Below, piece by piece: positions 4,215-37,550 of a stretch of 39,444 nucleotides of DNA. This stretch comes from Desulfobacteraceae bacterium (GTDB lineage: Bacteria > Desulfobacterota > Desulfobacteria > Desulfobacterales > ETH-SRB1). The notes under the pieces are model-generated. The model was not told the DNA's origin, did no database searches, and saw nothing but the letters and a program-made list of their open reading frames with translations. The stretch is taken from positions 1-39,444 of the forward strand of contig VMSQ01000214.1 of assembly GCA_013792055.1 (NCBI GenBank). The letters run 5' to 3'. The position numbers and the translations under genes are program-made. The stretch's first letter is position 1. Each line of letters starts with the position of its first letter.

Positions 4215-4249
4215 AATTGAAAATTGACTATTGAAAATTGAAAATTGGT
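4215..4249. repeat. Heptamer tandem array (AATTGAA-type)
   Basis: AATTGAA AATTGAC TATTGAA AATTGAA AATTGGT. Confidence 0.8.
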
Positions 4250-4387
4250 GGTACGCCTTCGGCGTGCTAATTAATAAGGCAAAGTTACTTACTTTTCGTT
4301 CATAGTCTCTGCCTACTGTTAAATGTAAACTGACAAATGAAAGATGCCAAATATCGAAGATTGTCGATTAATTTGTATCCTTACATT

Positions 4388-4421
4388 CAATATTCAATCG
4401 TCAATCTTCAATCTTCAATTC
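4388..4421. repeat. Heptamer tandem array (CAATCTT-type)
   Basis: CAAT at 4388, 4395, 4402, 4409, 4416 (exact 7-nt spacing). Confidence 0.85.
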
Positions 4422-5306: not shown

Positions 5307-5319
5307 AAGAAACCTCCGG

Positions 5320-5350
5320 TTATTGGGTATTAGTTATTGGTTATTGGTCA
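5320..5350. repeat. Heptamer tandem array (TTATTGG-type)
   Basis: TTATTGG GTATTAG TTATTGG TTATTGG TCA. Confidence 0.8.
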
Positions 5351-5370
5351 TAAAATTGACAGAATTCCTT

Positions 5371-5432
5371 CAATATTCAATTTTCAATATACAATCTTCA
5401 ATTTCCTTGGTCTTCAATCTTAAATCTTCAAT
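5371..5432. repeat. Heptamer tandem array (CAATNTT-type) running into the acsC stop region
   Basis: CAAT at 5371, 5378, 5385, 5392, 5399 then CAATCTT AAATCTT CAAT at 5415-5432. Confidence 0.8.
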
Positions 5433-6787: not shown

Positions 6788-6819
6788 TTGATGATTTGAT
6801 AATTGGTAGATTTGATGAT
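6788..6819. repeat. Octamer tandem array (TTGATGAT-type)
   Basis: TTGATGAT TTGATAAT TGGTAGAT TTGATGAT. Confidence 0.8.
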
Positions 6820-6845
6820 TCGTTAAATCCACCCAATCCAATCCC

Positions 6846-6956
6846 CAATCAACTAATTATCAAATCATCCAATTATCAAATCATCCAATCCCCAATCAAC
6901 CAATCATCCAATCATCCAATCACCTACTCGACTACTTGACTACTCGACCAATCTAC
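6846..6956. repeat. Octamer tandem array (~14 units, CAATCATC/TACTCGAC-type)
   Basis: CAATCAAC TAATTATC AAATCATC CAATTATC AAATCATC CAATCCC CAATCAAC CAATCATC CAATCATC CAATCACC TACTCGAC TACTTGAC TACTCGAC CAATCTAC. Confidence 0.85.
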
Positions 6957-20990: not shown

Positions 20991-21035
20991 TTGACACCTC
21001 CTTTGTATGGTCATTGGTCATAAAATTGAATATTG

Positions 21036-21184
21036 CCTGCCCGCCATCGCACTCGCCGTAACCAGATATGCGAAATTCAAGCGCTTGTGCTCAGGCGAGG
21101 CGGGCGGGTCGATTGAATATTGAAGATTTGTGGAATCGCTCCTGCCCGCCATCGGCTTCGCCTTCAGGCGAGGCGGGCGGGTCG
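21036..21184. repeat. Two copies of a GC-rich inverted-repeat hairpin (CCTGCCCGCCATCG ... CAGGCGAGGCGGGCGGGTCG)
   Basis: Copy 1 arms 21036-21050 and 21092-21111; copy 2 21141-21184. Confidence 0.8.
21112..21132. repeat. Heptamer array, left arm of composite intergenic element
   Basis: ATTGAAT ATTGAAG ATTTGTG followed by GAATCGCT. Confidence 0.7.
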
Positions 21185-21219
21185 CTCCATTAATTCATAT
21201 AAAATTGACAGAATTCCTT

Positions 21220-21261
21220 CAATATTCAATATTCAATATTCAATATCCAATATCCAATGAT
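21220..21261. repeat. Heptamer tandem array (CAATATT-type), right arm
   Basis: CAATATT x3, CAATATC x2, CAATGAT, exact 7-nt period, ending next to the metF2 stop. Confidence 0.9.
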
Positions 21262-21263
21262 CA

Positions 21264-22181
21264 CTAAATTACCGGTCTTGGCATAAGTCCTGCCTTCTCC
21301 ACAATCTCTGGCACAATATCTTCCCATGCTACTGCCATAATATGAACTCCATGAATTCCATCTATTTCTTTGAGCAGCTCAATGGTTTCCAGACAAATTT
21401 TAACGCCTTCTTCTTTTGCATCTTTTGCATCCGCCATACGATCAACCAATTCCTTTGGTACGCTTAATCCAGATACATTATTCCTCATATAACGCGCCAT
21501 ACCAACAGACTTCACAGGGATTACTCCAGCAAGTATATGGACTTTCTGATCCAAGCCTCGGTCTCTGACCATTTCCATCCATCTGATAAATTTCGGAACA
21601 TCAAAAATAGCCTGAGTCTGAATAAAGTCTGCACCAGCCTTGATTTTTTTTGCCAGGCGGGTAACACGAAATTCAAAAGGATCGGCAAAAGGGTTGGCTG
21701 CTGCTCCAAGGAAAAGTGGCACCTCTCCTGAGATATCATCTCCGGATAAGAATTTTTTTTCATCGCGCATCTTCTTTAAGGTCTGAATAAGCTGCATAGA
21801 ATCAATGTCATATACGCCCTTGGCGGTAGGGTGGTTGCCGAACTTCTGATGATCACCGGAAAGGCACAATACATTTCGAATCCCAAGTGCAACTGCCCCT
21901 AAGATATCGCTCTGAATAGCAAGACGATTCCTATCCCGCACGACCATCTGCATTACAGGTTCTACATTAACTTGTTTTAAAAGAACACACCCGCTCAGAC
22001 TTGACATACGAACAATTGCCGTCTGATTATCAGTTACATTTAATGCATCGCAATGGAATTTAAGAAGTTCTCCCTTTCTCTGAATCACTTTTACAGAAGT
22101 ACCCTTTGGAGGACCACATTCAGCAGTTACAGCAAACTGCCCGCTGGATAAAATTTTTTCTAAATTACTACCCGATTTCAT
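21264..22181 (-). CDS. metF: Methylenetetrahydrofolate reductase, MetF family (copy 2)
   Basis: FAVTAECGPPKGTSV, NVTDNQTAIVRMSS, RDRNRLAIQSDILG, CLSGDHQKFG, FIQTQAIFD; ATG at 22181 preferred over GTG at 22190 because of upstream GGAAGAG. Confidence 0.9.
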   Translation of the reverse strand: MKSGSNLEKILSSGQFAVTAECGPPKGTSVKVIQRKGELLKFHCDALNVTDNQTAIVRMSSLSGCVLLKQVNVEPVMQMVVRDRNRLAIQSDILGAVALGIRNVLCLSGDHQKFGNHPTAKGVYDIDSMQLIQTLKKMRDEKKFLSGDDISGEVPLFLGAAANPFADPFEFRVTRLAKKIKAGADFIQTQAIFDVPKFIRWMEMVRDRGLDQKVHILAGVIPVKSVGMARYMRNNVSGLSVPKELVDRMADAKDAKEEGVKICLETIELLKEIDGIHGVHIMAVAWEDIVPEIVEKAGLMPRPVI

Positions 22182-22186
22182 AATAA

Positions 22187-22627
22187 TCACTCTTCCTTTG
22201 AGTTAGATATTGCTTTGGTCTTCAATGGTATTGGGCCCAAACTTCTGACCGTTTCAGTAACTTCTCTGGCGACCTCACAAAATTTCCGGGCTTCGCCGGC
22301 TGAAATATTATATATCTCCAACCTTTCTTTTTCTATAGACAGCTTGCCCAGGAGATTTTTAACATATTGAACCCGTTTCCTGGCCCTGTAATTCCCTGAA
22401 GAATACTCGCATTTTCCTTCCGAACATCCCACCAGGCAGACGCCATCTGCCCCGTTTTCCAAAGCCTTTAATATATGTATTGCCCCTATTGTTCCTATGC
22501 AAGGCACCTTGACAATCCTTATATTCGACGGGTACTGCATTTTTAACGATCCTGCCAGATCAGCCGAGCAAGACGGACAGTAATTACAGCAAAAGGCAAG
22601 AATTAAAGGCTCAAATTTACCTTTCAT
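22187..22627 (-). CDS. MvhD-like [2Fe-2S] electron-transfer protein (copy 2)
   Basis: LAFCCNYCPSCSADLAG, VPCIGTIG, LVGCSEGKCEYSSG; ORF track opens with GTG at 22660 inside a heptamer array, so the internal ATG at 22627 is preferred. Confidence 0.85.
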   Translation of the reverse strand: MKGKFEPLILAFCCNYCPSCSADLAGSLKMQYPSNIRIVKVPCIGTIGAIHILKALENGADGVCLVGCSEGKCEYSSGNYRARKRVQYVKNLLGKLSIEKERLEIYNISAGEARKFCEVAREVTETVRSLGPIPLKTKAISNSKEE

Positions 22628-22646
22628 TGGATATGTTCCATTTGCC

Positions 22647-22674
22647 GGTTCATGGTTCACAGTTCACGGTTACA
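22647..22674. repeat. Heptamer array (GGTTCAC-type)
   Basis: GGTTCAT GGTTCAC AGTTCAC GGTTACA. Confidence 0.75.
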
Positions 22675-25336: not shown

Positions 25337-25364
25337 AACCGTGAACCGTGAACTGCAAACCGTT
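25337..25364. repeat. Heptamer array (AACCGTG = reverse complement of the GGTTCAC class)
   Basis: AACCGTG AACCGTG AACTGCA AACCGTT. Confidence 0.75.
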
Positions 25365-34775: not shown

Positions 34776-35654
34776 TTAAAGAGTATTTCTTGCTGCTTCG
34801 ACCGTATTTTTCATCAGCATAACAATTGTCATGGGTCCTACGCCACCAGGTACCGGTGTTATTGCTGCAGCTTTTTCTTTAACACTATCAAATTCAACAT
34901 CGCCTACTAAAATCGCCTTTCCTTCAGGGGTTTTTCCAATCCTGTTAACTCCAACATCAATAACAACAACCCCTTCTCTGACCATATCGCCGGTAACTGT
35001 CTTGGGATGACCGGTAGCTACAATAAGGATATCCGCACGCTTGGTGTGGAAAGATAGATCCTTGGTCCTTGTATGGCACAGAGTTACCGTTGCATTTCCA
35101 GAGGGCCTCTTCTGAAGCATTAGATTTAGAACCGGTTTTCCAACGATGTTGCTCCTCCCGACTATTACCACTTCAGCTCCTTCTGTTTTTACTCCTGAAC
35201 GACTTAGAAGCTCTAAAACTCCATGAGGTGTACACGGAAGAAAACATTTCTCTCCGATAACCATTTTCCCAACATTTACAGGATGGAAACCATCTACATC
35301 CTTATTGGGATCAATTGCATAAAGTACACGGGTTTTATTAATGTGCTTGGGGAGAGGCAACTGGATTAAGATCCCGTGAATACTCGAATTATTGTTCAAT
35401 TCATCAACCAACTTCAGGAGATCTTCCTCTGAAGCGTCTGCCGGCAAGTTAATCATCTTCGAATAAATACCCAGGTTATTACAAGACTTCTCCTTTTGAC
35501 CGACATATACTTTTGATGCAGGATCATCACCCACAAGTACTGTGGCCAATCCCGGAGTCAAGCCATGTTTTTCCTTTAATTCTGCTATCTCTTTTTTAAG
35601 CTCTACTCTTATTTCTTTGGCAATTTCGGTTCCACTGATAATTTTTGCGGACAT
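34776..35654 (-). CDS. folD: Bifunctional methylene-THF dehydrogenase/methenyl-THF cyclohydrolase
   Basis: 292 aa; VGDDPASKVYVGQKEKSC, GILIQLPLP, DVDGFHPVNVGKM, VVIVGRSNIVGKP, TPVPGGVGPMTI. Confidence 0.96.
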   Translation of the reverse strand: MSAKIISGTEIAKEIRVELKKEIAELKEKHGLTPGLATVLVGDDPASKVYVGQKEKSCNNLGIYSKMINLPADASEEDLLKLVDELNNNSSIHGILIQLPLPKHINKTRVLYAIDPNKDVDGFHPVNVGKMVIGEKCFLPCTPHGVLELLSRSGVKTEGAEVVIVGRSNIVGKPVLNLMLQKRPSGNATVTLCHTRTKDLSFHTKRADILIVATGHPKTVTGDMVREGVVVIDVGVNRIGKTPEGKAILVGDVEFDSVKEKAAAITPVPGGVGPMTIVMLMKNTVEAARNTL

Positions 35655-35676
35655 TATTTAAATCTCCCGTTTGTGG

Positions 35677-35786
35677 ATTGAATATTGTCGATTGAATATT
35701 GAATATTTGTGGAATCGCTTCGCTCTGCCTTTTTTAAAAATTGACAGAATTCCTTCAATCTTCAATAGTCAATCTTCAATCTTCAA
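35677..35786. repeat. Composite intergenic element bounded by inverted heptamer arrays
   Basis: Left ATTGAAT ATTGTCG ATTGAAT ATTGAAT ATTTGTG GAATCGCT; core AAAATTGACAGAATTCCTT; right CAAT at 35756, 35763, 35770, 35777, 35784. Confidence 0.85.
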
Positions 35787-37550
35787 TTAAAATAGCCCTT
35801 TTACTTTTCCGGTCTCAACATCTACGTCAATGCGCCTGTAAGCTGGATCTGAGGCTGTACCTGGCATAAGGCTAATTGCTCCAGCAACCGGCACAACAAA
35901 TCCTGCCCCCTTATAAGTCAAGATATCACGAACAGGAAGAGTCCATCCATTTGGGACTCCTTTTATGTTAGGATCATGAGAAAGACTAAGGTGTGTCTTG
36001 ACCATACATGTTCCCAATTTCGAAAGTTCAGGATCCTGCTCAATTCTCTTGGCCTTGGCCTCGGCCTCAGGAGTATAGCTCACACCGTCAGCACCATAAA
36101 CCTCTTTTGCAATCATTTCAATCCGTTTACGGAGCGGAGTATCCAGTTCATAAAGAAGGCGAAAATCGTTTTCTTCTTCACATGCATCAACAACTGCATC
36201 GGCGAACTCCAAAGCCCCGTCACCACCCTTAAGCCAATGCTCAGAGACAGCGACACGGGCACCTGAAGCTTCAGACAACCTGCGAACCGTATTTATCTCA
36301 TCCTTTGTGTCAGTATAAAATGAATTAATACAAACAACTGGATTAATTCCGGCCTTTTTTACCGTCTTAATGTGATGAACAAGATTTTCACACCCCTTTT
36401 CAACCCAGTCAACATGCTCCTCAAGATATGCGGGGTCCATTGGCTTGCCTGGAGGTACTGGAGGTCCGCCACCATGACATTTCAACGCACGAATAGTTGC
36501 AACCACTACAGCGCAATGAGGTTTCAGCCCGCTAAAACGGCATTTTAAGTTCCAGAATTTCTCAAAGCCAATATCTGCTCCAAAACCACTTTCAGTAACA
36601 TGATAGTCTGATAATTTTAATCCTACCCTGTCTGCAATGATTGATGATTGTCCTATGGCTATGTTTGCAAATGGCCCTGCATGTACAAAAACCGGCTGCC
36701 CTTCTAAGGATTGAAGGAGGTTTGGATTCAGGGCTTCCACCATCCATGCAGTCATGGCACCGTCAACCTCAAGGTCTGCCGTAGTAACGGGATCTCCATT
36801 TTTGTTATAAGCAACCACTATCTTGCCCATTCGCTCACGCATATCTTTCAGACTGGTAGCAACAGCCAAAATAGCCATAATCTCGGAACTTACTGCGATT
36901 CCAAATTTGGACTGCATGGGAAAGCCATCCATCTTTCCACCAAGACCTATTATTATATTACGGAGTGACTGGGCGCAAAAATCAATTATCCATCCCATTT
37001 CAACATTTTTTGGATTAATATCCAGGCGTTTCAAATTCTTTTTAGCCAGAATCTCATCAGAATAATTGTTTTCATGCTGCATCCTTGATGTCAAAGCTAC
37101 CATGGCTAAATTATGAGCATTCATGATGGCATTGATATCACCTGTCAAACCCAATGAAAAAGGCGTAAGAGGAATACACTGCGCCAGACCACCACCGGCA
37201 GCGCTACCCTTAATATTCATTGTGGGACCTCCGGAAGGCTGTCGTATAGCACCTATTACTCGCAGGCCTCTCTTGCCAAGTCCCTGCACCAATCCCATGG
37301 CAGAAGTACTTTTTCCTTCTCCGAGTGGAGTTGGGGTTATAGCTGTTACATCAATATATTTTGCGTCTGGTTTTCCTTCAAGACGTTTAATAACCTTTGT
37401 AAAATCTACTTTTGCCACATAATGCCCATGCGGAAGTAACTCGTCTTTCTCAAGTCCAAGTTCCTCTCCGAGTTGATATACAGTTTTCATATTCTTTTCC
37501 GCATCTTCGGCAATTTCCCAATCATGATGCTTAGTCGGATCAAGAGACAT
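35787..37550 (-). CDS. fhs: Formate-tetrahydrofolate ligase
   Basis: 587 aa; [20 protein letters not shown]-loop, [42 protein letters not shown] upstream of ATG. Confidence 0.96.

Follow-up and report, generated by a model that had tools for sequence, protein, structure and literature searches.

The fhs-folD spacer of a Desulfobacteraceae genome is probably one copy of a family of short mobile palindromes with heptamer arms

The PATEs are palindrome-associated, non-autonomous relatives of IS200/IS605 elements, defined by hairpin ends common to an autonomous tnpA-bearing element (PMC7290912). The REP and REPIN sequences associated with RAYT are, in the parts of the reports consulted, short intergenic inverted palindromes present in many copies and encoding no protein (PMC3116915, PMC3733652). 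Arrays of tandem octa- and heptanucleotides are described in Geobacter metallireducens as ‘global regulator sites’. The text and legends of that source report insertion sequences at a fixed distance from the class 1 arrays and interpret the paired arrays as protein-binding sites (PMC2700814). Heptamers are reported to be the commonest class of repeats in many bacteria, and the TAACTGA heptamers of Beggiatoaceae and cyanobacteria are direct repeats of one fixed unit found mostly upstream of start codons (PMC4679880).

The locus described here lies in the window, the whole 39,444-nucleotide stretch analysed (contig C131 of G000, a 3.17-Mb MAG of 340 contigs). It occupies the spacer between FolD (34776-35654) and the formate-tetrahydrofolate ligase gene fhs (35787-37550), both on the minus strand. 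Read on the plus strand, the element begins with a left arm of four heptamers, ATTGAAT ATTGTCG ATTGAAT ATTGAAT (35677-35704), about where the similarity among genomic copies ends. There follow the left core ATTTGTGGAATCGCT (35705-35719), a compact middle TCGCTCTGCCTTTTTTAA (35720-35737) comprising the inner helix and part of an unpaired CGCTTCGCT bulge, the right core AAATTGACAGAATTCCTTCAAT (35738-35759) and a right arm of four inverted heptamers (35760-35787). Its final heptamer overlaps the fhs stop codon by a single base, the first of the TTA at 35787-35789 on the plus strand. The preliminary description of this composite was accurate in all its coordinates, including the recurrences given below. 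The imperfect palindrome that it saw around GAATTC is also real, matching at 16 of 20 positions; the predicted fold pairs those bases with the left half of the element. A promoter scan places TTGACA-17-AATATT matches on the plus strand, in a variable part of the core. The whole fhs-folD unit is the best covariance-model match in the window (35684-35780, E 3.9e-20).

A second copy lies on the plus strand between genes for a methylenetetrahydrofolate reductase (metF2) and a response regulator (21112-21258; model match 21105-21244, E 2.7e-8), with its left core at 21126-21140, its right core at 21202-21223 and a GC-rich palindrome in the bulge (21141-21181). Another GC-rich palindrome, CCTGCCCGCC...GGCGGG (21036-21107), splits the left heptamer array of this copy and leaves an arm remainder at 21025-21035. 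The spacer between AcsC and the AcsE-like methyltransferase holds a partial copy on the same strand (5318-5402; model match 5322-5395, E 0.002), in which the right core (5353-5374) and right arm (5375-5402) are retained and a TTATTGG heptamer array replaces the left half. The left boundary of the fhs-folD element recurs at 21119-21140, and the 30-mer TAAAATTGACAGAATTCCTTCAATATTCAA at 21200-21229 and 5351-5380. A 19-mer occurs three times in the window against 0.05 expected by chance, and the left 15-mer twice against 0.14. Two more distant relatives are present on the plus strand: a divergent core flanked by related inverted heptamer arms, between acsE and the next gene (4215-4419; model match 4353-4412, E 0.004), and a weak relative with inverted 7/8-mer arms of 35 nt that are 89% complementary (6788-6887; E 0.0019). 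Separately, TGAACCG-type heptamer arrays with no paired partner nearby are found at 22646-22671 and 25337-25353, and one such array overlaps the start of the gene at 22187-22660.

The family extends well beyond the window. The right core occurs at 47 places in the parent genome at three mismatches or fewer, with none for the reversed-pattern control, and the left core at 56 places at two mismatches or fewer, against 6. Of the 47 right cores, 31 are preceded by a left core 14 to 261 bases upstream, which bears out the proposal of a dispersed element with conserved ends and a variable middle. About 14-21 bases separate the cores in the compact form; in longer forms the middle is filled by the GC-rich palindromes or other repeats, usually in the bulge at GCT^TCGCT. 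The GC-rich palindrome is itself a second dispersed repeat (58 places genome-wide, none in the control) that nests in the heptamer-armed element, seemingly right before T or TCG. Pairwise, the own-genome copies are 88-94% similar. This similarity repeatedly ends at +50/+51 from the start of the right core and, in compact copies, at about -64 on the left. The boundaries, taken from individual stretches of the genome, define a unit of about 115 bp in which inverted arms of about four heptamers each flank a structured core.

The covariance model built from the element finds 40 copies in the parent genome, and copies in all 17 genomes of the family and, elsewhere in the order, in 15 of 41 genomes. 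In an even sample of the phylum, under a stricter threshold and stricter filters, only 4 of 196 genomes contain copies, G000 and G009 not being counted. A scan of named genomes finds the core almost confined to Desulfobacterales MAGs, including Desulfobacteraceae bacterium Eth-SRB1 and Candidatus Desulfaltia. Stray 22-mer matches in Xenorhabdus, Holdemanella and C. difficile have neither arms nor partner core and are ascribed to chance. One complete element (L142) sits on a 4-kb contig binned as Phycisphaerae, through either transfer or a binning error. At two loci (L026, L102) a separate MITE-like repeat, GATGAACTCGTAAAAAGTC...GACTTTTTACGAGTTCATC with CCGTCATTCCGGCGAAAGCCGGAAT inside, lies within or adjoins element copies. 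Literature searches with the element sequences, and on palindromic repeats of Desulfobacter, returned no account of the element.

The sites are strongly intergenic: 7 of 44 fall in stop-free frames of at least 150 codons, compared with 76% of positions drawn at random from those stretches. The preliminary description had placed the element just after a stop codon. Its intergenic position stands, while only about half of the genes facing an element have their stop codon 35 bases or less from the core (our count from the orientation data). It had also held the orientation relative to transcription to be constant, which is true of the three window copies and fails for the family. By mechanical gene calls, 26-29 complete copies between co-directional genes have one orientation and 15-16 the opposite, with a further 5-7 sites between convergent and 2-4 between divergent genes. 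A core found nowhere else, or scattered at random through coding regions and in both orientations, had been named as evidence against such an element; of this, the mixed orientation alone is found. Arrays of ATTGAAT/ATTGAAG, GTGAAAA and ATTGTTG give stops in all three frames when read inward from either end and none when read outward. Stops in all frames are not general, since GCGGATT and GAACATC arms contain no stops at all.

Comparison of orthologous junctions shows that the element is absent from some of them. The fhs-folD junction is empty or nearly so in G001, G002, G003 and G007, where the stop codon almost adjoins the presumed ribosome-binding sequence. It holds the element in G000, a short remnant resembling the right arm in G005, and an element with GTGCCTAAA-type arms in G006. 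No target-site duplication is evident at fhs-folD when it is compared with the four empty sites, and the analysis as a whole establishes neither such a duplication nor a fixed target. The acsC-acsE junction is empty in G002, holds full elements that differ in their arms in G016 and G010, and is partial in the window. Between murC and murB, compact junctions without the element (G008, G011) occur alongside full elements with ATTGAAG arms (G012) or GTGAAAA arms (G006), and heptamer arrays without the core (G015, G009, G013); in G000 a full element with ATTGAAG arms follows a GAGCTGA array. At one further locus (L160, CSMAG_340) the element directly joins a metF-like 3′ end to folD, unlike the arrangement in G000; either two copies have recombined or the assembly is in error at a repeat close to the contig end.

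Junctions are thus reused, with arms that vary and a core that stays the same. At the same junction GTGAAAA stands against AAGATTG (murC-murB) and ATTGAAG against GTGCCTAAA (fhs-folD). Elsewhere the same core bears AAAGTGCCT, GTGAAAA, GCGGATT or GAACATC arms that are still mutually complementary, and the covariance model adds AAAGTGAGCT/AAAGTGCCT in G008, TTTCCAATACTCAA in G030 and GAACAAGGAATTTCGAATGATGAA in G010 and G032. In MAGs this may mean either repeated insertion or rewriting in place. It is possible, on a tentative reading, that the element is a mobile hairpin with a conserved core and a stem that is rewritten. Entirely different yet still complementary arms at one junction in related species would then imply that one arm is copied onto the other and that both expand in 7-nt steps, perhaps starting from the final codons of the gene upstream.

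The core folds through GGAAT/ATTCC and then CTGYC/GRCAG, with the CGCTTCGCT bulge unpaired on one side. RNAalifold predicted no consensus pairs on the copy alignment, and the structure was therefore assessed by a named-pair test. The arms, GGAAT/ATTCC and the inner CTGYC/GRCAG together pair 82.4% of cells in 39 compact copies, against 78.3% when shuffled and 30-45% when slid; in the same copies, cells changed on both sides number 72 against 42 expected, and kinship among copies inflates both the pairing and the double-change figures. The arms within one copy are complementary beyond what other copies predict. When arms were permuted between copies, none of 5000 permutations reached the observed complementarity, and 4 of 5000 did so among ATTGNNN arms alone. 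The match is one of unit type more than of individual bases: the conserved ATTG positions pair well and the three variable heptamer positions pair poorly, less so outward.

The strongest evidence for mobility comes from G008 (Eth-SRB1) and is indirect for the window. In that genome the armed core forms the interior of a 277-bp non-coding repeat, present in seven copies that are 96-99.6% identical with unrelated flanks. Its ends match the 47 nt (87%) and 53 nt (92%) flanking a 144-aa tnpA in the same genome (L284), the product of which matches NCBIfam NF033573, the IS200/IS605 transposase. This element (L262-L266, L221) has the feature that characterises PATEs, hairpin ends in common with an autonomous tnpA element. 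No duplication is seen by eye in the flanks of the seven copies, and a TTTAT common to their left edges could belong to either target or element. A different repeat of about 264 bp in G030, with copies 86-94% identical, also bears the armed core; 43 nt of its right end match the sequence downstream of another tnpA, in G008. The IS200-type ends of G008 have no match in the window or in the fetched stretches of the parent genome, and the armed core alone is shared; the window copies lack hairpin ends common to an autonomous tnpA element. Only two Y1 transposases are detected in G000, both long RAYT-like proteins whose genes (L183, L184) are flanked by a repeat of their own, GGGACGCCCTTTAGTTTTGCAGTTTACAG. 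The RAYT proteins are rejected as mobilisers in G000, as their genes have these other flanking repeats and the covariance model finds no element copy near either. The GTAG/CGTC tag of REPINs is not evident in the element consensus. The element is also not a classical TIR MITE, as its arms are inverted but not conserved in sequence.

Taken together, the fhs-folD spacer probably belongs to a family of mobile palindromes that are short, non-coding and non-autonomous, and related to PATEs and REPINs. This reading fits the dispersal, the empty sites, the mixed orientation, the bounded unit and the connection to IS200/IS605. The module would spread as single-stranded hairpin DNA, hitch-hiking on Y1 (HUH) transposases, as is thought for PATEs and REPINs. 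Positions at gene 3′ ends may be the survivors of selection against gene disruption, helped by the three-frame stops that the commonest arms (ATTGAAG/ATTGAAT, GTGAAAA) give when read inward. The arms would turn over by 7-nt slippage, with complementarity kept by strand-switching within the hairpin.

In mRNA the element would form a stem-loop, and a conserved intercistronic RNA structure (a processing signal, stabiliser or terminator) selected at gene 3′ ends has been weighed as a separate explanation. The location between co-directional genes, often right at the stop, agrees with it, as do the co-varying helices. On either strand the window copy also has a stronger fold than shuffled sequence (z -4.5 for the transcript strand, -3.4 for the other), but folded as DNA it is about equally strong (z -4.3). 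Counts of G-U against A-C show no dependence on the transcribed strand (p 0.32 and 0.83, in only 25 copies), no intrinsic terminator (a GC-rich stem followed by a U run) is called at 21015-21266 or 35655-35790, and an Rfam scan of the window returns no family. The element occurs in either orientation to transcription and is missing from orthologous junctions of close relatives. An RNA role is accordingly considered unlikely, and no conserved RNA function is indicated. Less probable still is that the arms are paired binding sites for a global DNA-binding protein of the IHF/HU type. The proposal made for G. metallireducens concerns, as far as its text and legends go, the same layout, with 7/8-mers in tandem on the two strands, a variable distance apart (PMC2700814). 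Here, however, the constant part is the core and not the arms, and these are wholly different between some copies and species with complementarity kept, leaving no fixed arm site; such a role is given very little credence. The RNA reading and the protein-site reading account for position or layout but leave mixed orientation, empty sites and arm turnover unexplained.

Heptamer arrays grown independently at each junction by local slippage, in the manner of STRR/LSSR repeats and with an incidental core, would account for murC-murB, where almost all species possess an array of their own that continues the final codons of murC, in several cases with no core. The reported abundance of heptamers in many bacteria (PMC4679880) is in keeping with this. 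The 22-base core and its 15-base partner nevertheless occur as a pair at unrelated loci, and also in different families of the order. Slippage alone does not give inversion, and in contrast to direct STRR-type heptamers without a core, the arrays are inverted around a conserved core at 31 of 47 places. Given the shared, bounded core, slippage as the whole explanation is already disfavoured and appears improbable; the murC-murB arrays without a core indicate that local slippage, and not insertion, may lie behind some of the pattern.

If the mobile-palindrome reading is correct, a set of puzzling intergenic heptamer arrays in Desulfobacterales would fall within one family of mobile hairpins, which would offer a test of how complementary stems persist through sequence change. 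For annotators, such spacers, including those of the Wood-Ljungdahl cluster, would then probably not be regulatory sites dedicated to the genes beside them.

Among the described systems, PATEs are resembled by the G008 element, which lacks an ORF, occurs in multiple near-identical copies with unrelated flanks and shares terminal hairpin ends with a tnpA-bearing IS200/IS605 element. The window copies differ in lacking those IS200/IS605-type ends, and the interior is a conserved armed core of many genomes instead of a tnpA/tnpB remnant (PMC7290912). The element is like the REPINs, as the consulted parts of the reports present them, in being short, intergenic, palindromic, multicopy and without a protein. 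It is unlike them in that it is not associated with the RAYT-like genes of its own genome and its arms consist of tandem 7-mers whose sequence varies between copies (PMC3116915, PMC3733652). With the Geobacter arrays it shares multicopy tandem 7/8-mers on opposite strands; judged from the text and legends, the unit sequences there are different and no such core is described (PMC2700814). Like the TAACTGA heptamers, the element is intergenic, can supply stops in all frames and sometimes overlaps stop codons, and it is distinguished from those direct repeats by variable units inverted around a core (PMC4679880).
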